Shown here piece after piece: positions 50,800 through 62,564 of a DNA stretch of 64,000 nucleotides. Each line of letters starts with the position of its first letter. Within the stretch, counting starts at the first letter, position 1. The stretch spans positions 4,836,001 through 4,900,000 of the forward strand of contig NZ_CP098740.1 in assembly GCF_026167665.1 (NCBI RefSeq). The letters run 5' to 3'. A model generated the notes under the pieces. It searched no databases. It saw only the letters and a program-made list of their open reading frames with translations, and had not been told where the DNA came from. The translations under genes were made by a program, and so were the position numbers. The DNA is from Streptomyces drozdowiczii (lineage in GTDB: Bacteria > Actinomycetota > Actinomycetes > Streptomycetales > Streptomycetaceae).

Positions 50800-50948
50800 T
50801 CCGGCTCCGGGCGGATCGCGGGCCGAACCGGGGCGGAAAGCCTGTTTCGGCCGGGAACCGGTCACTAGGATCCACTCGTTGATCGGATGTCAACACGACG
50901 TGGAGGCGCCGGCACCGGCCGGCCCCCAAGAAACCAATGGGAGGACTC

Positions 50949-51524
50949 GTGGGAGTCAGCCTCAGCAAGGGCGGCAACGTCTCGCTGACCAAGGCCGCGC
51001 CCAACCTGACCGCGGTCATCGTGGGTCTCGGCTGGGACGCCCGTACCACCACCGGCGGGGACTTCGACCTCGACGCCAGTGCTCTGCTGACGAACGCCGA
51101 GGGCAAGGTCGCCAACGACGGCAACTTCGTCTTCTTCAACAACCTCAAGAGCCCCGACGGCTCCGTCGAGCACACCGGTGACAACCTCACCGGTGAGGGC
51201 GAGGGCGACGACGAGGTCATCAACGTCAACCTGGCCACGGTGCCGGCCGACGTCGACAAGATCGTCTTCCCGGTCTCGATCTACGAGGCCGAGACCCGCC
51301 AGCAGAGCTTCGGCCAGGTCCGCAACGCGTACATCCGCGTCGTCAACCAGGCCGACAACAGCGAGCTCGCGCGCTACGACCTCTCCGAGGACGCCTCGAC
51401 CGAGACCGCCATGGTCTTCGGCGAGCTGTACCGCAACGGCGCGGAGTGGAAGTTCCGTGCCATCGGCCAGGGGTACGCCTCCGGTCTGCGCGGCATCGCG
51501 CAGGACTTCGGCGTCAACGTCTGA
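50949..51524 (+). CDS. terD: TerD-family calcium-binding stress protein, copy 1
   Basis: A 191-residue TerD domain protein. It shows [18 protein letters not shown] at the start, the GWDAR segment, DFDLDASA (calcium-site Asp residues, ~32-40), [12 protein letters not shown] (~80) and [18 protein letters not shown] near the end. TerD proteins bind Ca2+ and are needed for tellurite resistance, phage resistance and normal development in Streptomyces. The GTG at 50949 follows GGGAGGA. First of two near-identical tandem copies. Confidence 0.93.
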
Positions 51525-51683
51525 CCTGCCCGGGGCCCCGGCCCCGGCACCAGCATCTCCGTCCGGCGCCGCACGACGTGCGGCGCCGGACGTCGCTCGA
51601 CGGACAGTTCTTCCGGCCGTACGGGTTCGGCCGGGCGCTCCGTCCGGTACAAAGACGGTTCATAGACTCGGGGAGGACACACC

Positions 51684-52259
51684 ATGGGCGTCACGCTCGC
51701 CAAGGGAGGCAATGTCTCCCTCTCCAAGGCCGCACCCAATCTCACCCAGGTGCTGGTCGGGCTCGGCTGGGACGCACGATCCACGACGGGGGCCGACTTC
51801 GACCTGGACGCCAGCGCGCTGCTGTGCCAGTCGGGCCGGGTCCTCGGAGACGAGTGGTTCGTGTTCTACAACAACCTCACGAGCCCCGACGGTTCCGTGG
51901 AGCACACCGGTGACAACCTCACGGGTGAGGGCGAGGGCGACGACGAGTCGATCATCGTGAACCTCACGCAGGTGCCGGCCCATTGCGACAAGATCGTCTT
52001 TCCGGTCTCGATTCACGAGGCCGACAATCGCGGTCAGACATTCGGCCAGGTCAGCAATGCGTTCATCCGCGTCGTCAATCAGGCCGACGGCCAGGAACTC
52101 GCGCGCTACGACCTCACCGAGGACGCCTCCACGGAGACCGCGATGATCTTCGGTGAGTTGTACCGCTACAACGGCGAGTGGAAGTTCCGTGCAGTTGGTC
52201 AGGGGTACGCATCGGGGCTCCGGGGCATCGCTCTAGACTTCGGGGTCAACGTTTCGTAA
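51684..52259 (+). CDS. terD: TerD-family calcium-binding stress protein, copy 2
   Basis: Also 191 residues and roughly 80 percent identical by eye to the copy 160 bases upstream, with the same [10 protein letters not shown] and [12 protein letters not shown] motifs. Differences cluster in the loop after DASALL ([11 protein letters not shown] in place of [12 protein letters not shown]) and include two Cys (LLCQSGR, PAHCDK), which the first copy lacks. A clear tandem duplication. GGGGAGG precedes the ATG. Confidence 0.93.
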
Positions 52260-52329
52260 AGCCGCGCACGGCGCGGGGGAGCCCCGTGCACATCGGGGGA
52301 GACCCGTTACATACATGATGGGGTAGCCA

Positions 52330-53457
52330 GTGCTTCTGAAAACCTTCGGGTGGTCGTTCGCGATCACCGTGATCGGCCTTGTGGCCGCGTGGTTCTACGG
52401 GGGGTGGGAAGCCTTCGGCGTGGTGGCGATCCTTTCCGTCCTGGAGATCTCGCTGTCCTTCGACAACGCCGTTGTCAACGCCGGGATCCTGAAGAAGATG
52501 TCCGCCTTCTGGCAGAAGATCTTCCTCACCATCGGCGTGATCATCGCGGTCTTCGGTATGCGGCTGGTCTTCCCCGTCGTGATCGTCGCCATCACCGCCA
52601 GCCTGAACCCGATCGACGCCATCGATCTCTCGTTCAACGACCCGGACCGCTACAAGGAACTGGTCACGGACGCCCACCCGGCGATCGCCGCGTTCGGTGG
52701 CATGTTCCTGCTCATGATCTTCCTCGACTTCATCTTCGAGGACCGTGACATCCAGTGGCTCCGCTGGATCGAGCGCCCGCTGGCGAAGCTCGGCAAGGTC
52801 GACATGCTGTCGGTCTGCATCGCGCTCATCGTCCTGCTGATCTCCGCGATGACCGTCGCCACCCACGCCCACCAGCACGGCGGCGGACATGTCGACAAGG
52901 CCGAGACCGTCCTGCTCTCCGGTATCGCCGGTCTGATCACGTATCTCATCGTCGGCGGGCTCTCCGGCTACTTCGAGGACAAACTCGAAGAGGAGGAGGA
53001 ACGCGAGCACGAGGCCGAGGAAGAGGCCAAGCGGAGCGGCAAGAAGGTCTCCGCGGTCGCCCTTTCCGGCAAGGCCGCCTTCTTCATGTTCCTCTACCTG
53101 GAAGTCCTCGACGCGTCCTTCTCGTTCGACGGCGTGATCGGCGCCTTCGCCATCACCAACGAGATCGTGCTCATGGCGCTCGGCCTCGGCATCGGCGCCA
53201 TGTACGTCCGTTCGCTCACGGTCTACCTGGTCCGCCAGGGCACCCTGGACGACTACGTCTACCTGGAGCACGGCGCGCACTACGCGATCGGCGCGCTCGC
53301 CGCCATCCTGCTCGTCACGATCCAGTACGAGATCAACGAGATCATCACCGGTCTCGTCGGCGTCGTCCTGATCGCCTGGTCCTTCTGGTCCTCCGTCCGC
53401 CGAAACAAGGCGCTGGAGGCCGAGGAAGGCAAGAGCGAAGTGACCGCCGGGGTGTGA
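52330..53457 (+). CDS. TerC-related integral membrane protein (DUF475 family)
   Basis: A 375-residue membrane protein with about nine hydrophobic segments. TerC/DUF475 signature motifs with acidic residues inside membrane helices are present: LEISLSFDNAVVNAGIL (~residues 37-53) and, late, EVLDASFSFDGVIGAFAIT (~260-278). A highly charged cytosolic loop (DKLEEEEEREHEAEEEAKR, ~217-236) separates the halves. TerC proteins are thought to transport or sense metals such as Mn2+ at the membrane. It follows the terD pair by 70 bases. Confidence 0.9.
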   Translation: MLLKTFGWSFAITVIGLVAAWFYGGWEAFGVVAILSVLEISLSFDNAVVNAGILKKMSAFWQKIFLTIGVIIAVFGMRLVFPVVIVAITASLNPIDAIDLSFNDPDRYKELVTDAHPAIAAFGGMFLLMIFLDFIFEDRDIQWLRWIERPLAKLGKVDMLSVCIALIVLLISAMTVATHAHQHGGGHVDKAETVLLSGIAGLITYLIVGGLSGYFEDKLEEEEEREHEAEEEAKRSGKKVSAVALSGKAAFFMFLYLEVLDASFSFDGVIGAFAITNEIVLMALGLGIGAMYVRSLTVYLVRQGTLDDYVYLEHGAHYAIGALAAILLVTIQYEINEIITGLVGVVLIAWSFWSSVRRNKALEAEEGKSEVTAGV

Positions 53458-53485
53458 CCCGGTAGGAATTGAGGGAACGCTCTTT

Positions 53486-53549
53486 GCGGGGCGGCTCGTA
53501 CGGCAACGGCTCCGGGACAGACCCGGAGGCCGGCCCGGAGCCGCCCCGC
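53486..53549 (+). terminator. Terminator after the TerC-related gene
   Basis: A 12-base perfect stem, GCGGGGCGGCTC (53486-53497) with GAGCCGCCCCGC (53538-53549), enclosing a smaller hairpin (CTCCGGG/CCCGGAG-like). It divides the terD-terD-DUF475 unit from the next gene. Confidence 0.82.
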
Positions 53550-53613
53550 AGTGGTGCGTGCGTCGTATGCGCCGCGTGCGACGGGTGAGGGACCGAGAGG
53601 GGCGGGGTCGGGG

Positions 53614-54348
53614 ATGGCGTTCTGGAACAGCCTGTGGCCGGGGCGGGAGACACAGTTCGAGTCGGGCAGCGCGGCCACCAACTCCATCGTGCTCACCCGG
53701 CGGCACGCCACGGTCTCGCTGACCAAGCAGGGGGCGCTGAGCGGGAACCTCCGCGTCAACCTCTCCTGGCGCATGCGCACCTCGGACATCGGGGGCCGCT
53801 CCCGGCAGAGCGGCCGGCTGCTGCGCCCCTTCAAGCTCTTCCAGCCGGAGGCCGTCCAGGCGCACACCCAGGGGATGGTCAACGTCGACCTGGACCTCGG
53901 CTGCATGTACGAGCTGGCGGACGGCACCCGGGGCGTGGTGCAGCCCCTGGGTAATCTGCTCGGCGATCTGAACGGGCCGCCCTACATCAGGCTCAGCGGC
54001 GACGACCGCTTCGGCGCCCCCTCCGGCGAGACGCTGTACGTCAACCTTGATCAGCGCGAGCACATCAAGCGGCTGCTGTTCTTCGTCTACATCTACGACC
54101 AGACGCCCGCGTTCGACCGTACGCACGCCAAGGTGACGCTCTACCCCGGCAACGGGCCGCGCATCGAGATCGAGCTGGACGAGCGCGCCCCGCAGGCCCG
54201 CTCCTGCGCGGTGTTCACGGTGGAGAACATCAAGGACGAGCTGATCGTGCGCCGCGAGGTGAAGTTCGTCTACGGCTTCCAGTCCGAGCTGGACCGGATG
54301 TACGGCTTCGGCATGCAGTGGGGCCGTGGCTACAAGACCCGCACCTAG
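53614..54348 (+). CDS. TerA-like tellurium resistance family protein
   Basis: A 244-residue soluble protein with a TerD/TerA-type beta fold: ITVSL-like strand HATVSLTKQGALSGNLRVNL (~30-49), DLDLGCMYELADGT (~88-101), YIRLSGDDRFGAPSG (~125) and a C-terminal NIKDELIVRREVKFV. Acidic calcium-site residues are fewer than in the TerD copies. An Arg-rich stretch (SDIGGRSRQSGRLLRPFKLF) interrupts the N-terminal part. Its stop is six bases from the stop of a convergent terD-like gene. Confidence 0.8.
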   Translation: MAFWNSLWPGRETQFESGSAATNSIVLTRRHATVSLTKQGALSGNLRVNLSWRMRTSDIGGRSRQSGRLLRPFKLFQPEAVQAHTQGMVNVDLDLGCMYELADGTRGVVQPLGNLLGDLNGPPYIRLSGDDRFGAPSGETLYVNLDQREHIKRLLFFVYIYDQTPAFDRTHAKVTLYPGNGPRIEIELDERAPQARSCAVFTVENIKDELIVRREVKFVYGFQSELDRMYGFGMQWGRGYKTRT

Positions 54349-54354
54349 ATGTCC

Positions 54355-55170
54355 TCAGGGCCGTATGAACTGCGGGCCCTGCGGGGGCAGCACGAAATTC
54401 GGGTCCGGAGCGGGCGCCGCCGCCGGAGCGGGCTGCGGATAGCCGTAGGCGGGCTGCGCGGAGGCCGGCTGGGGATAGCCGTACGCGGGCTGCGGCGCCG
54501 GGACCGCGGGCTGCGGATAGCCGTACGAGGGCTGCTGGTGCAGCACGGTCGCCTGCGAGTCCGGTACGGGGGCCGGGGCGGGCGGGACCGAGGGCGGCGC
54601 CGGGGCGGGCTGCTGGGGCTCCGGTTCCGCCTCGTCGACCGAGATGCCGAACGCGGTCGCGAGGCCGATGAGTCCCGTCGGGTAGCCCTGCCCCACCGCC
54701 CGGAACTTCCAGCCGTCGCCGCGCCGGTACAGCTCGCCGCAGATGATCGCGGTCTCCTCGCCGGTCTCGGCGCGCACGTCGAACACGGCGAGCGGTTCGC
54801 CGCCGGCCGCCGCGGCGTCGTAGACCAGGATGCGCAGATCGCGTACGGCTCCGAAGGCGGCCCCGTCCGAGGACGCGGCGATGACCACCTGGTCGACCGA
54901 GGGGTCGAGCGCGTTCAGGTCGGCCTCGATGGTGTCCGTCAGGCCCTCGGGCAGGCTGCGCTTGGGAAGCCGGCGTACCAGGCCCGACGGGTGGCGCGGC
55001 TGGTTGTAGAAGACGAAGTCCTCGTCCGAGCGCACGCGCCCGCCGGCGCCGATCAGCAGGGCCGAGGCGTCCACATCGGGCACCCCGGCGCCCGGCGTCC
55101 AGCGCAGCACGGCCCGTACGGCCATGGCGTCGAGAGGGACGTTCGAGCCTTTCACCATCGCGTGCGTCAT
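54355..55170 (-). CDS. TerD-domain protein with Pro/Gln/Tyr-rich C-terminal tail
   Basis: A 271-residue protein. Residues ~1-170 form a TerD domain (GAGVPDVDASALLIGAGGRV, RSDEDFVFYNQPRHPSG, EETAIICGELYRRGDGWKFR). The last ~95 residues are low-complexity with three YGYPQP repeats in a Pro/Ala/Gln background, probably disordered and exposed for binding. The ATG at 55170 is chosen with GCAGGA upstream; 55179 is possible. It is the only Ter gene of the cluster on the minus strand and shares a 220-base divergent region with the CitE-like gene. Confidence 0.86.
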   Translation of the reverse strand: MTHAMVKGSNVPLDAMAVRAVLRWTPGAGVPDVDASALLIGAGGRVRSDEDFVFYNQPRHPSGLVRRLPKRSLPEGLTDTIEADLNALDPSVDQVVIAASSDGAAFGAVRDLRILVYDAAAAGGEPLAVFDVRAETGEETAIICGELYRRGDGWKFRAVGQGYPTGLIGLATAFGISVDEAEPEPQQPAPAPPSVPPAPAPVPDSQATVLHQQPSYGYPQPAVPAPQPAYGYPQPASAQPAYGYPQPAPAAAPAPDPNFVLPPQGPQFIRP

Positions 55171-55390
55171 GCCGGTCATCCTGCCTGCTGGCGGCCCGTG
55201 CGGACAACGCGGGGGGCGAGGTCCGTGTCCCGGGCGGCGGGCGCATTCGCCCACTCCGTCACTTTTGAAATTCGTGCGAAACGGTCACGACACCCGGAAT
55301 TCACCCAGGCCGGGAACTGCCGACACCCGTTCGTACGTACTATTACCGGCCACACGTTGTCCGGTCGGTCAGAGAGTACGGGGGAATTGC

Positions 55391-56554
55391 ATGCGTCATT
55401 TCGGGCATATTGCAGCAGCTGCGAAGGACGGGCTGTTCTTCCACGAACCCTGTGCGTTCGACGCCGACTCCCCGGCCCCCCTCCTCTCCGCCGCCCTCGG
55501 CGCCACGCTCTACAGCCCCGCCACCCGCCCCCGGCTCGCCGACGACATCGTCAAGCTGGCCGGGCGCGGAGTCGTCTCGATGGTGCTGTGCCTGGAGGAC
55601 TCGATCGACGACTCCGAGGTCGTCGCGGCCGAGGAGAACCTGGTCAGGCAGTTCGCCGAGCTGGACGCCCGCTCCATCGAACCGCCGCTGCTGTTCATCC
55701 GGGTCCGCGAACCGGAACAGATCACCGACCTGGTGCGCCGCCTCGGTGCGACCGTCCGGCTGCTGTCCGGCTTCGTGCTCCCCAAGTTCACGCGTGCCCG
55801 GGGCGTCCCCTTCATGGAGGCCCTGACCAAGGCCGAGGCCGCCGCGGGCCGCCGCCTCTTCGCCATGCCCGTCCTCGAATCGCCCGAGCTCCTTCACCTG
55901 GAGACCCGCCGCGAAACCCTCCGGGGCATCGCCGAGACCGTCACCGCGCACCGCGACCGGGTCCTCGCGCTCCGCCTCGGCGTCACCGACTTCTGCTCCG
56001 CCTACGGGCTGCGGCGCTCCCCCGACATGACGGCGTACGACGTCCGCATCGTCGCCCATGTCATCGCGGACGTCGTCAACGTGCTCGGCCGGGCCGACGG
56101 GACGGGCTTCACGATCACCGGCCCCGTCTGGGAGTACTTCCCCCGCCAGGAGCGCATGTTCAAGCCGCAGCTGCGGAACAGCCCCTTCCAGGAAAATCGG
56201 GCCGAGTCGCTGCGCACCGCGCTCATCGCGCACGACCTGGACGGACTGCTGCGCGAGATCGACCTGGACCGGGCCAACGGGCTGCTCGGCAAGACCTGCA
56301 TCCACCCCTCGCACGTCGCCCCCGTGCACGCGCTGTCCGTGGTCAGCCACGAAGAGTTCAGCGACGCCCAGGACATCCTGCGGCCCGAGAGCAACGGCGG
56401 AGGCGTGCTGCGCTCCGCGTACACGAACAAGATGAACGAGGTGAAGCCGCACCGGGCCTGGGCCGAGCGCACCCTGCTGCGCGCCGAGGTCTTCGGCGTG
56501 GCCCGGGAGGACGTCGGCTTCGTGGACCTGCTGGCGGCCTGCCTCGCGGAGTGA
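55391..56554 (+). CDS. CitE-like HpcH/HpaI aldolase/lyase of the Ter-linked pathway
   Basis: A 387-residue TIM-barrel lyase. Metal and substrate motifs of the CitE group are seen: MVLCLEDSIDDSEV (~58-71), LFIRVRE with the conserved Arg (~98), GFVLPKF (~125), LRLGVTDFCSAYGLR (~195) and GKTCIHPSHVAPVHAL (~300). It would make or break a C-C bond on a CoA-like or carboxylate substrate. It opens a three-gene unit with a phosphoribosyltransferase fusion and a HAD phosphatase, an arrangement known next to Ter genes. Start ATG 55391. Confidence 0.88.
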   Translation: MRHFGHIAAAAKDGLFFHEPCAFDADSPAPLLSAALGATLYSPATRPRLADDIVKLAGRGVVSMVLCLEDSIDDSEVVAAEENLVRQFAELDARSIEPPLLFIRVREPEQITDLVRRLGATVRLLSGFVLPKFTRARGVPFMEALTKAEAAAGRRLFAMPVLESPELLHLETRRETLRGIAETVTAHRDRVLALRLGVTDFCSAYGLRRSPDMTAYDVRIVAHVIADVVNVLGRADGTGFTITGPVWEYFPRQERMFKPQLRNSPFQENRAESLRTALIAHDLDGLLREIDLDRANGLLGKTCIHPSHVAPVHALSVVSHEEFSDAQDILRPESNGGGVLRSAYTNKMNEVKPHRAWAERTLLRAEVFGVAREDVGFVDLLAACLAE

Positions 56555-56641
56555 GCGGGACCGGCGGGACGATCGGAGAGGGACACCGGAGCCGAGCACG
56601 GCACCGGGTCCGACAGACGAGTGGAAAGAGGGACTGCGGAC

Positions 56642-59098
56642 GTGGTGTGGTCGGGTAGCTGGGTGGCGGAGCGACTGGGCGTCGGGCTGGTGGGCGACGG
56701 GGAGCTGCGCGAGCTGCTGGGCCTCGCCCTGCGCCGCAACCCCAAGCGGGCACATCTGCTCGTGTCCAACGTGCTCGGCAAGCACGTCCCGCAGCGCCCC
56801 TCCGTGGTCTACGGGGCCGGCGTCGAGCTGGGCCGCCGGGTGCGGGCGCTCCTCGGCGAGGACGGCGCGCGGCGCGCGGTCGTCGTCGGTTACGCGGAGA
56901 CGGCCACCGGCCTCGGCCACTCGGTCGCCGACGGGCTCGGCGCGGCGCCCTACCTCCACTCGACCCGCAGGCCCGTGCCCGGCGTCGCCACGGCGGGCGG
57001 CTTCGAGGAGGCCCACTCGCACGCCACCTCGCACCTGCTGCTCCCCGAGGACCCGGAGCTGCTGGCGGCGGCCGGGCCCGGCTCCGCGCTGGTCCTGGTG
57101 GACGACGAGTTCTCCACCGGCAACACCGTCCTCAACACCATCCGCGACCTGCACCGGCGCTACCCCCGCGACCACTACGTCATCGTCGCCCTGGTCGACA
57201 TGCGCTCACCGGCCGACCGGGGCCGCCTCACCGAGTTCGCGACCGAGATAGGCGCCCGCGTGGACCTGATCGCCCGCAACACCGGCACGGTCACCCTCCC
57301 GGACGGCGTCCTGGAGAAGGGCCAGGCCCTCGTCGCGGAGCGGGAGGCCCGAGCGGAAGCCCCCCAGGACGGGCCCCCGCACCCGCGCCCCCACATCCGC
57401 CTCGACCTCCCCTGGCCCGCCGGCGTCCCCGACGGCGGGCGGCACGGCTTCACCGAGGCCCACCGCGCCCTCCTGGAGCCCGCGCTCCCCGCCCTCGCCG
57501 ACCGCGTCGCCCGGGCGCTCGGCGACGGGCCCCGCCGCGTCCTCGTCCTCGGCTTCGAGGAGCTGATGTACGCGCCGCTGCGCCTGGCCACCGCCCTGGA
57601 GGAGCGCACCGACGCCGAGGTCCGCTACTCCACGACCACCCGCTCCCCGGTCCTCGCCGTGGACGACCCCGGCTACGCGATACGCACCCGCCTCGTCTTC
57701 CCGGCCCACGACGACCCGGCCGACGGCCCCGGCGAGCGCTACGCGTACAACGTGGCCGGCGCCGGCTTCGACGCCGTCGTCCTCGTGATCGACTCCACCG
57801 CCGACACCCCGGCCCTGCACGCCCCCGGCGGCCTCCTCGACCGCCTCGCCCCGCACACCGCGCAGGTCCTGCTCGCGGTGATCCCCTCGTACGTACCGGG
57901 GGCGCCCGCCCCCGAACGCCAGGAAGAAGCCCCCATGCAGCTGCCCGAGCCCCTGCGCGGCCCCGCGTTCTCCTCGTACGCGCCGGACGAGGTCGGCTGG
58001 CTGCTCCAGGACCTCTCGGACACCCGCCTCGAAGCGCCCACGGAGGAGCGCGAGGAGGCGATACAGAGCGGGGGCGCTCACTACGCGGAATCGCTCCCCG
58101 TCGAGTACCAGCCCTCCGCCGCGTACCAGGAGCTGTTCAAGAGCGCCCTCGCGGTGTCGGCCGCCCGCATCGCCCGCGCCGTGGGCACCGTCACCGAGAC
58201 GGTCCTCGCCGAGCGCGGCCCGCGCCCGGTCCTCGTCTCGCTCGCCCGGGCCGGTACGCCGGTCGGCGTGCTGATGCGCCGCTGGGCCCAGGCACGGCGC
58301 GGCCTCGACCTGCCGCACTACGCCGTCTCCATCGTGCGCGGACGCGGCATCGACGCCAACGCGCTGCGCTGGCTGGCCGAGCACCACAACCCGGCCGACG
58401 TCGTGTTCGTGGACGGCTGGACCGGCAAGGGCGCGATCACCCGCGAACTGGCCGCCGCCGTCGCCGAGTTCGAGAAGGCCGGGGGAGTGGCGGGCTTCGA
58501 CCCGGAGATCGCGGTGCTGGCGGACCCGGGCGGCTGCGTGCGGACGTACGGCACCCGCGAGGACTTCCTCATCCCCTCCGCCTGCCTCAACTCCACGGTC
58601 TCCGGCCTCATTTCCCGTACGGTCCTGCGCGCCGACCTGGTCGGCCCGTACGACTTCCACGGCGCGAAGTTCTACCGCGAGTTGGCCGGCGCCGATGTCT
58701 CCGGCCTCTTCCTCGACACGGTCGCCGCCCGCTTCGACGAGGTCGCGGACGCCGTGGACGCCGAGGTGAAGGAACTGCTCACCGCCGACCGGGCCCCCAC
58801 CTGGGAGGGCTGGGCGGCCGTCGAGCGCATCAGCGAGGAGTACGGCATCCACGACGTCAACCTCGTGAAGCCGGGCGTCGGCGAGACCACCCGGGTCCTG
58901 CTGCGCCGCGTCCCCTGGAAGATCCTCGCCCGGCGCGGCGCCGGCCCGGACCTCGACCACATCAGGCTCCTGGCCGAGCAGCGCGGCGTGCCCGTCGAGG
59001 AGGTCGACTCGCTCCCGTACACCTGCGTCGGGCTCATCCACCCCAAGTACACGCGCGGGGCGACCGGCGCCGACGGCAAGGCGGTGGAGTCCGCGTGA
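56642..59098 (+). CDS. PRTase-TRSP-StiP fusion protein of the Ter-linked pathway
   Basis: An 818-residue fusion. Residues ~1-250: phosphoribosyltransferase domain with PRPP loop LVLVDDEFSTGNTVLNTI (~150-167). Residues ~255-425: TRSP domain (VLVLGFEELMYAPLRLATAL). Residues ~430-800: StiP-type domain beginning QLPEPLRGPAFSSYAPDEVG, with SLARAGTPVGVLMRRW and a second PRPP-loop-like motif VVFVDGWTGKGAITREL (~590-606). StiP is described as a cysteine-protease-like family, but this second motif suggests a PRTase-like fold too. It probably builds a ribosylated small molecule. GTG 56642 is used; 56621 is possible. Its end overlaps the HAD gene by four bases. Confidence 0.85.
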   Translation: MVWSGSWVAERLGVGLVGDGELRELLGLALRRNPKRAHLLVSNVLGKHVPQRPSVVYGAGVELGRRVRALLGEDGARRAVVVGYAETATGLGHSVADGLGAAPYLHSTRRPVPGVATAGGFEEAHSHATSHLLLPEDPELLAAAGPGSALVLVDDEFSTGNTVLNTIRDLHRRYPRDHYVIVALVDMRSPADRGRLTEFATEIGARVDLIARNTGTVTLPDGVLEKGQALVAEREARAEAPQDGPPHPRPHIRLDLPWPAGVPDGGRHGFTEAHRALLEPALPALADRVARALGDGPRRVLVLGFEELMYAPLRLATALEERTDAEVRYSTTTRSPVLAVDDPGYAIRTRLVFPAHDDPADGPGERYAYNVAGAGFDAVVLVIDSTADTPALHAPGGLLDRLAPHTAQVLLAVIPSYVPGAPAPERQEEAPMQLPEPLRGPAFSSYAPDEVGWLLQDLSDTRLEAPTEEREEAIQSGGAHYAESLPVEYQPSAAYQELFKSALAVSAARIARAVGTVTETVLAERGPRPVLVSLARAGTPVGVLMRRWAQARRGLDLPHYAVSIVRGRGIDANALRWLAEHHNPADVVFVDGWTGKGAITRELAAAVAEFEKAGGVAGFDPEIAVLADPGGCVRTYGTREDFLIPSACLNSTVSGLISRTVLRADLVGPYDFHGAKFYRELAGADVSGLFLDTVAARFDEVADAVDAEVKELLTADRAPTWEGWAAVERISEEYGIHDVNLVKPGVGETTRVLLRRVPWKILARRGAGPDLDHIRLLAEQRGVPVEEVDSLPYTCVGLIHPKYTRGATGADGKAVESA

Positions 59099-59922
59099 CG
59101 GCCTCCCCGGTCACCCTCGTCGCCAGCGACCTCGACCGCACCCTCATCTATTCCTCGGCCGCGCTCCAGCTCACCATGGACGACGAACGGGCGCCCCGGC
59201 TGCTGTGCGTCGAGGTCTACAACCACAAGCCCCTCTCGTACGTCACCGAGACCGCGGCCGGGCTGCTGACCGACCTGACCGCCGCCGACTCCACGGTGTT
59301 CGTCCCGACGACCACCCGCACCCGCGAGCAGTACCACCGCATCCGGCTCCCGGGCGCCCCGGCCGAGTTCGCCATCTGCGCCAACGGCGGCCACATCCTG
59401 GTGAAAGGCGAGTCCGACCCGGACTGGCAGCGGACCGTGGCGGACCGCCTCGCCGACGAGTGCGCCCCGCTCGCCGAGGTCCGCGCGCATCTCGTCGCCA
59501 CCGCCGACCCCGCGTGGCTGCTCAAGGAGCGCGTCGCCGAGGACCTGTTCGCGTATCTCGTGGTCGACCGCGCCGAACTGCCCCCGGAGTGGACGAAGGA
59601 ACTCGCCGCCTGGGCGGAGCCGCGCGGCTGGACCGTATCGCTCCAGGGCCGCAAGATCTACGCCGTGCCGCGCCCGCTCACCAAGAGCGCCGCCATGCGC
59701 GAGGTCGCCCGGCGCACCGGCGCCACGCAGACCCTCGCCGCCGGTGACTCCCTGCTGGACGCGGACCTCCTGCTCGCCGCCGACCAGGGCTGGCGCCCCG
59801 GCCACGGCGAACTCGCCGACGCGGGCTGGAACGCCGACCACGTCGAGGCCACCGCCGAACGGGGCGTGGCGGCGGGCGAGGAGATCCTGCGCCGCTTCCT
59901 GCGGGCCTCGGAAACCGGGTAA
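59095..59922 (+). CDS. HAD-superfamily phosphatase of the Ter-linked pathway
   Basis: A 275-residue Cof-type HAD hydrolase. Motif I is ASDLDRTLIY (nucleophile Asp ~12), motif II Thr is in VPTTTRTREQY (~62), motif III Lys is in RPLTKSAAM (~200) and motif IV is AAGDSLLDADLLLA (~218). It likely removes a phosphate from the product of the two upstream enzymes, with which it is translationally coupled by a GTGA overlap. Confidence 0.88.
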   Translation: MTASPVTLVASDLDRTLIYSSAALQLTMDDERAPRLLCVEVYNHKPLSYVTETAAGLLTDLTAADSTVFVPTTTRTREQYHRIRLPGAPAEFAICANGGHILVKGESDPDWQRTVADRLADECAPLAEVRAHLVATADPAWLLKERVAEDLFAYLVVDRAELPPEWTKELAAWAEPRGWTVSLQGRKIYAVPRPLTKSAAMREVARRTGATQTLAAGDSLLDADLLLAADQGWRPGHGELADAGWNADHVEATAERGVAAGEEILRRFLRASETG

Positions 59923-60991: not shown

Positions 60992-62458
60992 TCAGTGGCT
61001 CCCCGCGCCGCGTTCCTCGCGGATGTCGGCGACGACGTCGGCGACGGTCCGGCGCAGGCCCTCCGTCACGGTGAGGAAGTGCCAGTAGTCGGGGTGTCGG
61101 TGCTCCAGGGCCGTGATCGCCTGGTCCAGGCGGGCCACCGCGTCGTCCAGCGGCCGGGCGTGCCGCGGCTCGGGCGTCTGGCGCCCGGCCATCGCGAGGC
61201 GCTGGGCGTCGCGGATGGCGAACCGGGTGCGCTCGATCTCCTGCTGCGGGTCCTTGGCGACGCCGTCGAGCCGGCGGAGACGGTCACCGGCGGCGGAGAC
61301 CGCCTCGTCGGTGGCGTTGAGCAGCGCCCGCACGGTGCTCAGCCGGGACGTGGCGTCGGCCCAGCGCTGCTCGTCGCGGGCCTGGGCCGCCTCCTTCAGC
61401 TTCTCCTCGGCCCGGCGCACATTGACCGCGGCCTGCTCCGGGACCGGCTGGAGGTCCTGCCAGCAGGCGGCGGAGAACCGGCGCCGCAGCTCGCTGAGGA
61501 CGGGCTCGACGGACGCGGACCGGGTGGTCAGCGCCTGGGCGCGGGTGCGCAGCGTCACCAGCCGGCGGTCGATCTCGGCGGCGCGCTCGGGCAGCTTCTC
61601 CGCCTCGGCCCGTACGGCTTCGGCGTCGCGCAGCACGCGGTCGGCGCGCTGGAGGGTCTCGGTCACGCCGTGGCGCCCGGCGCCCTGGTTGAGCTTGGTC
61701 AGCTCGGGGGCGAGGGCGGCGAGCCGGGCGGCGAGATCGTCCGCCCGCAACCCGGACGCCCGCACCGAATCGAGAGCATTGCTCGCGCCGAGGAGCGCCT
61801 GTCGCGCACGCTCGACGGCCGGGGCGAGCCGGGCGAGCTGCGTCTCGGCGCTCCCGAGGAGCGGCCCGAGCCCGGCGCCGAACCGGTCGAGCTCCCCCTT
61901 GACCCGTATCAGCTGCTCCTTCGCGGAGGTCAGCTCGGCCCGGGCCCGGGACGCGACGGACGGTTCGAGATCGTCGCGGTCGAGGTCATGGGCGTCGACG
62001 GCGGTGATGTACGCGTGACTCGCCTCGTCGATGCGCCGGCCGAGCGCGGCGAAGTCCTCCACGGCCTTGCGGGCGGCCGGCGAACTGTCGACCGCGGTGA
62101 TGGTCTCGATGGAGATCTTGAGGTCGCGCTGAGCGGTGTCCAGCTCGTAGAACGCCTCGGCGGCGGCGTCCTTCGCCGCCTGCGCCTCGGCCCGCTGGCT
62201 CTCACCGCGCCCGCCGAACCACCGCCGCGTACCGCCGCCGGTGACGGCGAGGGGAAGGGCGGCGGCGAGGAGGGGCAGGGGCGCGAGGACGAGAACGCAC
62301 AGGTCGCGCAGGTGGGTGGCGCGGTGGGCGGTGGCGGGCCGACCATCCGGGCCGGGAACGGACCGGGCACCCGGATCCGCCCCCACCGCACGACGCCGAC
62401 TCCGCTCCCGGACCGCTCCGGCGATATCCGCCTGCGGCTGCGCGTCTGTCGCCGTCAC
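60992..62458 (-). CDS. Coiled-coil membrane protein of unknown function
   Basis: A 488-residue protein: a disordered basic N-terminus (~1-50), one membrane helix (LCVLVLAPLPLLAAALPLAV, ~55-75) and then almost 400 residues of Ala/Arg/Glu/Leu-rich helix with heptad character, forming long coiled coils (for example RAEEKLKEAAQARDEQRWAD). The layout suggests a structural or scaffold protein at the membrane. The family is not recognised; it is seen in Streptomyces only as hypothetical. The GTG at 62458 follows GGGAGAGG; a longer frame to 62503 lacks such a site. Confidence 0.75.
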   Translation of the reverse strand: MTATDAQPQADIAGAVRERSRRRAVGADPGARSVPGPDGRPATAHRATHLRDLCVLVLAPLPLLAAALPLAVTGGGTRRWFGGRGESQRAEAQAAKDAAAEAFYELDTAQRDLKISIETITAVDSSPAARKAVEDFAALGRRIDEASHAYITAVDAHDLDRDDLEPSVASRARAELTSAKEQLIRVKGELDRFGAGLGPLLGSAETQLARLAPAVERARQALLGASNALDSVRASGLRADDLAARLAALAPELTKLNQGAGRHGVTETLQRADRVLRDAEAVRAEAEKLPERAAEIDRRLVTLRTRAQALTTRSASVEPVLSELRRRFSAACWQDLQPVPEQAAVNVRRAEEKLKEAAQARDEQRWADATSRLSTVRALLNATDEAVSAAGDRLRRLDGVAKDPQQEIERTRFAIRDAQRLAMAGRQTPEPRHARPLDDAVARLDQAITALEHRHPDYWHFLTVTEGLRRTVADVVADIREERGAGSH

Positions 62459-62564
62459 ATGCCTCTCCCGTGCCGTTCCGCCCTGCCGGATACATTCTCC
62501 CACCAGTAAGGACGAACACAGGTGCCGGTTAGTTCACGGCTGGCGCGACGACCGCGCCGATTTC

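Follow-up and report, generated by a model that had tools for sequence, protein, structure and literature searches.

A Ter gene cluster of Streptomyces drozdowiczii represents the actinomycete, chromosome-borne version of the Ter-linked metabolite module, free of ATP-grasp enzymes and centered on a four-domain fusion protein. It lies in a window of 64,000 bases, the whole stretch of DNA analyzed here, which covers bases 4836001-4900000 of a genome of 7.39 Mb in a single contig. Genes of the TerD and TerC-like types are accompanied by a C-C bond lyase, a fusion of the domains PRTase_2, TRSP, StiP and PELOTA_1, and a HAD phosphatase (Table 1). The most likely function of these enzymes is predicted to be ribosylation dependent on phosphoribosyl pyrophosphate (PRPP), followed by dephosphorylation. 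While the locus is ordinary as a cluster, its main interest is StiP, a predicted enzyme of the phosphoribosyltransferase (PRTase) fold.

Anantharaman, Iyer and Aravind reportedly described in 2012 a Ter-linked module for the biosynthesis of a "nucleoside-like metabolite". The present cluster is that module, and neither the module nor the general prediction is new; what is added here is the reassignment of StiP, a tested core, and a biochemical precedent for an O-riboside product. Like the 2012 module, the locus places PRTase_2, TRSP, StiP, PELOTA, HAD and a PF15617 lyase, all but HAD recognized by Pfam, beside TerD and TerC-like genes. Unlike it, four PRTase and RNA domains are joined in one protein, there is no ATP-grasp partner of the ATPgrasp_Ter type (judged accessory, see below), and the cluster is chromosomal and conserved across Streptomyces, with DUF475 replacing the classical TerC and with TerB unmatched across 80 Streptomyces loci. 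In the published model, PRTases and HAD enzymes make a nucleoside or nucleotide signal, which TerB/TerD sense and TerC responds to (PMC7824862; papers cited by PMC number are drawn on here in excerpt). An initial annotation, made from the letters of the window, had tied the locus to this prediction, and PMC8115787 and PMC7824862 bear it out. No paper that works out what the Ter-cluster enzymes do chemically was found in the open-licence literature.

StiP and the other catalytic domains

Besides PRTase_2, the fusion has in StiP another domain predicted to adopt the PRTase fold. Its predicted model (predicted local distance difference test score, pLDDT, 86) has this fold and matches phosphoribosyltransferases. 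The best of them is CriT, the closest solved fold among the matches listed, a relation that sequence searches of the PDB did not reveal. With PRPP as donor, CriT attaches ribose-5-phosphate to a hydroxyl group, and the phosphate is then taken off by the HAD enzyme CrpP (PMC10299916). The same reaction is reported for Cj1432, acting on a GalfNAc moiety (PMC12096443), and for dual-domain Klebsiella enzymes (PMC11231755). As in the CriT-CrpP pair of Bcs3, a transferase of the PRTase fold (here predicted) is matched in the window with a HAD partner. CriT-type pairs differ in that their acceptor is a capsule or O-antigen glycan, and the excerpts describe no L7Ae or TRSP domain in them.

StiP is probably not the cysteine protease of its Pfam name. 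Among the invariant columns of a 64-row alignment there is no cysteine that could serve as an invariant catalytic residue, and Cys191 is present in 14 of the rows. No protease fold occurs among the 50 structural matches listed, which does not exclude a protease. Some database entries label StiP or the fusion "phosphoribosyltransferase". On the question of PRTase or protease, the open-licence literature, as excerpted, yielded only PMC12111023, where the name from the databases is used in passing.

Several observations weigh against the PRTase assignment. Cys191 stands just after a core strand and is kept in 38/42 rows of an actinomycete-rich set, nearly all of them actinomycetes (3/53 alphaproteobacterial rows share it), so it may have a role in that branch. 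In the loop VDGWTGKG, the two adjacent acids of the canonical PRPP motif are missing and, because of this, StiP may have a different ligand or no activity; it is therefore treated as a domain that works like a PRTase and not filed as a type I member. Homology to PRTases by profile alone was tried and is not significant. Two of ten classical PRTases gave P ~0.003 in the same strand, with 0.02-0.49 for the others and 0.08-0.39 for control families. With a deeper alignment, those two scored 0.008 and RecQ-PRT scored 0.006 out of register, while the remaining PRTases spanned 0.02-0.74 overall, hardly better than the controls. The CriT match is structural only, has no residue-level alignment, and came from a second look at the Foldseek top 1000. 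Finally, the model of the full fusion is poor (pLDDT 53).

The other enzyme domains carry conserved catalytic motifs. PRTase_2 is a type I PRTase by its PRPP loop, which has two acids followed by TGxT: the motif DDExxTG is intact, with D154, D155, E156, T159 and G160 invariant and T162 present in 39/40 rows. Its model matches APRT, OPRT and UPRT. There is a hint that TRSP is a degenerate PRTase, given by its comparison with the PRTase_2 profile (P 0.001, 0.002 in reverse; 0.01 for a HAD control) and by a helix-strand order that agrees with PRTases in the low-confidence model of the full fusion. In the lyase, E69, D70, R106, E163 and D200 are invariant in 38/38 rows; a putative metal site is suggested because D200 and the LEDS stretch (E69-D70) align with malyl-CoA lyase (4l9y), E163 falling beside a gap there. 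The HAD protein conserves DxDxT, T/S, K and GDxxxD, the motifs of a HAD phosphatase. The initial annotation had recognized PRTase, TRSP and StiP in the fusion, all three of which are confirmed, and overlooked the fourth domain, PELOTA_1. Its scheme with a single PRTase is likewise incomplete: StiP is the predicted second PRTase-fold domain, and an L7Ae-type domain ends the protein.

Conservation and the smallest module

The core of the module consists of PRTase-TRSP, StiP-PELOTA and HAD. These parts are present in a 15-kb stretch of Acinetobacter phage ME3 and a 21-kb plasmid stretch of Rhizobium phaseoli, in neither of which was a lyase detected with three lyase queries; the lyase is therefore placed outside the smallest module. 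The annotated role of the lyase in building a carboxylated precursor found no support. Like the present cluster, the Ter operon of ME3 (PMC7824862) combines PRTase-TRSP, HAD and StiP-PELOTA with TerD and DUF475; it differs in being unfused and in that neither lyase nor ATP-grasp was found in its 15 kb.

Conservation of the enzyme genes beside Ter genes, on which the initial annotation had staked its reading, holds in Streptomyces and in other actinomycetes. The closest named relatives of the fusion are from Streptomyces, and the best 80 of at least 573 relatives supplied the loci of this genus, 58 of them at least 19 kb long. The order and strands of TerD, TerD, DUF475, TerA, tailed TerD (reverse), lyase, fusion and HAD are kept in all 58, and therefore the arrangement is not due to chance. 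Of the 76 Streptomyces loci that allowed a test, 75 carry the fusion as a single open frame, the exception (L058) being out of register. In a sample of the class, StiP scored above the cut-off in 68 of 296 genomes (16 of 114 genera at E 0.001), comprising 28 of the same genus, the window's own included, and 40 others. From these 40, 19 actinomycete loci outside Streptomyces were taken, and one divergent locus was added via a phylum search. Lyase, PRT, TRSP, StiP and PELOTA occur together in 19/19 of these other actinomycete loci and HAD in 18 (it was not found in L113). TerD lies inside the fetched stretch in 12; the remaining seven all belong to one family, f63. Among ten f63 genomes searched, the strongest TerD is on the same contig as StiP in seven, about 14-17 kb away, and on another contig in three.

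An ATP-grasp gene looks like an accessory, with nothing missing here, because its absence is usual among the actinomycetes examined. None was seen beside the cluster, as the initial annotation had said of the window. Its suggestion that the partner might lie elsewhere is not upheld: no dedicated ATP-grasp was found in the organism's own genome with a PF15632 profile search, which recovered two positive plasmid records, or with a Duffyella ATP-grasp protein as a query, for which there was no positive control. As for its other suggestion, of a reduced pathway, the ATP-grasp-free state is the usual one in these actinomycetes. Three weak PF15632 matches in the genome were rejected, two being amino-acid-ligase-like (L001, L002) and the third CarB of carbamoyl-phosphate synthase (L003). 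Four genomes of the genus were included in the PF15632 search (G000, G023, G107, G128); G023 and G128 have a strong match located megabases away from StiP. None of the 80 Streptomyces loci, some of them short, gave an ATP-grasp match by tblastn with two queries. Among the 19 other actinomycete loci, one did (genome G212); this sole ATPgrasp_Ter gene (L117, 1832-2776) adjoins TerD.

Among 72,556 plasmid records, 2,567 encode relatives of the fusion domains, and most of these are from enterobacteria. The Ter clusters of Duffyella (L022) and Pseudomonas rhodesiae (L126) plasmids resemble the present locus in having PRTase-TRSP, HAD, StiP-PELOTA and lyase beside Ter genes. Enterobacterial and Pseudomonas plasmid clusters differ in that ATP-grasp, PRT, HAD, StiP and lyase are separate genes, arranged in this sequence; ATP-grasp lies beside the module on both the Duffyella and the P. 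rhodesiae plasmids, followed by a peptidase-like gene in the latter. Record counts for ATP-grasp and StiP are near-equal genus by genus, as counts and not record by record. Rhizobium is an exception, with 42 StiP plasmid records yet a place outside the ten most frequent ATP-grasp genera.

Some further copies were noted. A Bradyrhizobium plasmid copy (L023) sits among insertion sequences, its lyase match being a short stretch only. A 45% identical StiP was found in a phage collection (MT836648.1, 7253-8278), in a 15-kb record that lacks annotation, bears the name "Bacteriophage sp." and may be bacterial DNA. Divergent StiP- and PRTase-like stretches (~29% identity) at 9225-14109 of L119 neighbor several TerD-like genes, a TerA-like stretch and AIM24, and no lyase or HAD was found there. 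In five loci of family f63 (L114, L116, L120, L121, L124), the module is near a large protein of ~1200-1500 amino acids with alike N-termini; both of the two scanned matched a zinc ribbon weakly, and farther on, past the large protein, L121 and L124 carry an HSP70-like gene.

Predicted function and alternatives

Taken whole, the following proposal appears slightly more probable than its contrary. The fusion would use PRPP through the intact loop of PRTase_2, and this domain and StiP, with its altered loop, would either transfer ribose-5-phosphate to an acceptor or handle it there. Made right after the fusion, the HAD phosphatase would strip the 5-phosphate, as in the biochemically shown ribofuranosyl pairs of PRPP transferase and HAD enzyme. 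The lyase may make or trim the acceptor, the PELOTA/L7Ae-type domain may tie the enzyme to RNA, and the riboside may serve a TerD/DUF475 envelope-stress response. We infer the activity, the order of steps, the roles of the lyase and of RNA binding, and the use of the product as a signal.

The CriT-type precedent allows an O-riboside as product. In a more specific and unlikely version of the proposal, the Ter "nucleoside" would be no nucleoside but an O-riboside stress signal: a hydroxyl of a small acceptor would be ribosylated by the tandem of PRTase_2, degenerate TRSP and CriT-like StiP, joined to the L7Ae-type domain, and then dephosphorylated by HAD. StiP would in that case be the founding RNA-coupled PRPP glycosyltransferase, and no protease.

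It is somewhat unlikely that PRTase_2 alone forms an N-glycoside on a nucleobase-like acceptor, with HAD releasing a nucleoside-like signal and StiP serving as an unrelated processing protease. This is in line with the published prediction (PMC8115787, PMC7824862), with the canonical PRPP loop and structural matches of PRTase_2, and with the frequency of Cys191 in actinomycetes; its protease part is weakened by the lack of an invariant cysteine and by the predicted PRTase-like fold of StiP, while its N-glycoside part may still hold.

The module might instead be directed at RNA, brought in by the PELOTA/L7Ae-type domain, with the PRTase-fold domains acting on it or regulated by it. PELOTA_1 does have the profile and fold of an L7Ae/PELOTA RNA-binding domain. 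The K-turn motif of L7Ae is G-x-N-E-x-x-K; in four aligned StiPs, the K-turn-binding Asn is replaced by Gly or Ala, while the Glu and a basic residue are kept. In addition, Rfam detected no known RNA in the locus at E 1, the RNA-binding domain may only regulate, and we know of no PRTase that acts on RNA. An RNA target is quite improbable. Still less probable is that the metabolite module is a dispensable relic beside Ter proteins that alone matter: terZ-F does suffice for tellurite resistance in Klebsiella (PMC8115787), but across the aligned rows, from actinomycetes and a few proteobacteria, the catalytic motifs do not vary, and the order is kept in 58/58 loci.

With StiP as a predicted PRPP-type transferase and the core defined, the question of PRPP-dependent ribosylation reduces to a simple PRPP assay. 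Streptomyces is a safe host that is open to genetic work, and the core is held there in two adjoining genes, plus the lyase.

Gene organization and regulation

All genes listed by the initial annotation are present, as established with open reading frames (ORFs) and Pfam or, for HAD, with a PDB sequence match and motifs and, for the TerA-like protein, with tblastn. Its description of the three enzyme genes as a coupled unit applies to the fusion and HAD, because the start of the HAD gene overlaps the fusion end by 4 bases; the lyase stands 87 bases off and, given this gap, is described only as running in the same direction and probably belonging to one operon with the fusion.

Table 1. Features of the Ter cluster, in positions of the window
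Feature	Position	Strand	Evidence
TerD 1	50949..51524	+	Pfam TerD 1.5e-86; matched in 58/58 long Streptomyces loci
TerD 2	51684..52259	+	Pfam TerD 4e-84
TerC-related membrane protein (DUF475)	52330..53457	+	DUF475 1.3e-136, TerC 1.7e-20; NCBIfam PRK14013
TerA-like protein	53614..54348	+	Start inferred; no Pfam match; tblastn similarity
Tailed TerD (tail Pro/Ala/Gln-rich), divergent from the enzyme operon	54355..55179	-	TerD 3.2e-44, computed on a longer ORF reaching 55254
Promoter-like element GGGAAC-N17-ACGTACT, upstream of lyase	55312..55341	+	Conserved pattern in upstream regions
C-C bond lyase, TIM-barrel type, CitE-like (PF15617 C-C_Bond_Lyase)	55391..56554	+	Pfam 7.2e-121
Four-domain fusion PRTase_2-TRSP-StiP-PELOTA_1, 818 amino acids	56642..59098	+	Pfam: PRTase_2 2.7e-67, TRSP 1.6e-39, StiP 9.2e-106, PELOTA_1 9.4e-36
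HAD phosphatase	59095..59922	+	PDB sequence match to trehalose phosphatase 1.5e-9 and motifs; no Pfam match
Coiled-coil protein conserved with the module	60992..62503	-	Weak EzrA match; locus comparison

An element that looks like a site for an extracytoplasmic function (ECF) sigma factor precedes the lyase and may act as its promoter. The pattern GGGAAC-N14-20-ACGTAC occurs upstream of the lyase in 70 of 76 regions, that of the window among them (100 base shuffles gave a mean of 0.0), with a spacer of 17 in 67 regions and 16 in three, and is followed by TATTACCGGCCA in all 13 examples listed. In the window, GGGAAC-N17-ACGTACTATTACCGGCCA is strongly conserved at 55312-55352. The S. coelicolor gene sco2368 is, we assume, the TerD of this very locus. 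Sigma-E sites listed in PMC6767563 resemble the element, and sco2368 is named there as a sigma-E target. Across the genome, GGGAAC-N16-18-CGTACT occurs three times versus two for a reversed control, and therefore the pattern marks no large regulon. A GGGAAC box also recurs ahead of the first TerD, conserved across 33 rows; there the window has a conserved GGGAACCGGTCACTAGGATC...CGTTGATC block at 50853-50886. No sigma-70-type promoters were found at the locus, and terminator-like sites were no more frequent there than in shuffles.

The conserved neighborhood extends to the coiled-coil gene, which is present in 57 of the 58 long Streptomyces loci and 10 of the 19 other actinomycete loci, and a homologue lies inside the Tsukamurella operon (L024, 7552-8751). 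Its product may be a structural partner of the module. An O-methyltransferase (PF01596, 59951-60610) directly after HAD was considered as a pathway enzyme and rejected: it occurs in 14 of the 58 long loci and is therefore not core. It is found in 19 of the 80 Streptomyces loci overall, at a distance from HAD that exceeds 700 bases in three, and is probably a lineage-specific neighbor.

The name TerA for the product of 53614-54348 is our presumption; by tblastn, it is similar to proteins annotated "TerD family" at the place of TerA in Tsukamurella, Duffyella and Pseudomonas Ter loci. Elsewhere on the chromosome of the window's genome (G000), TerD domains recur, with 18 matches in all, some of them mutually adjacent.

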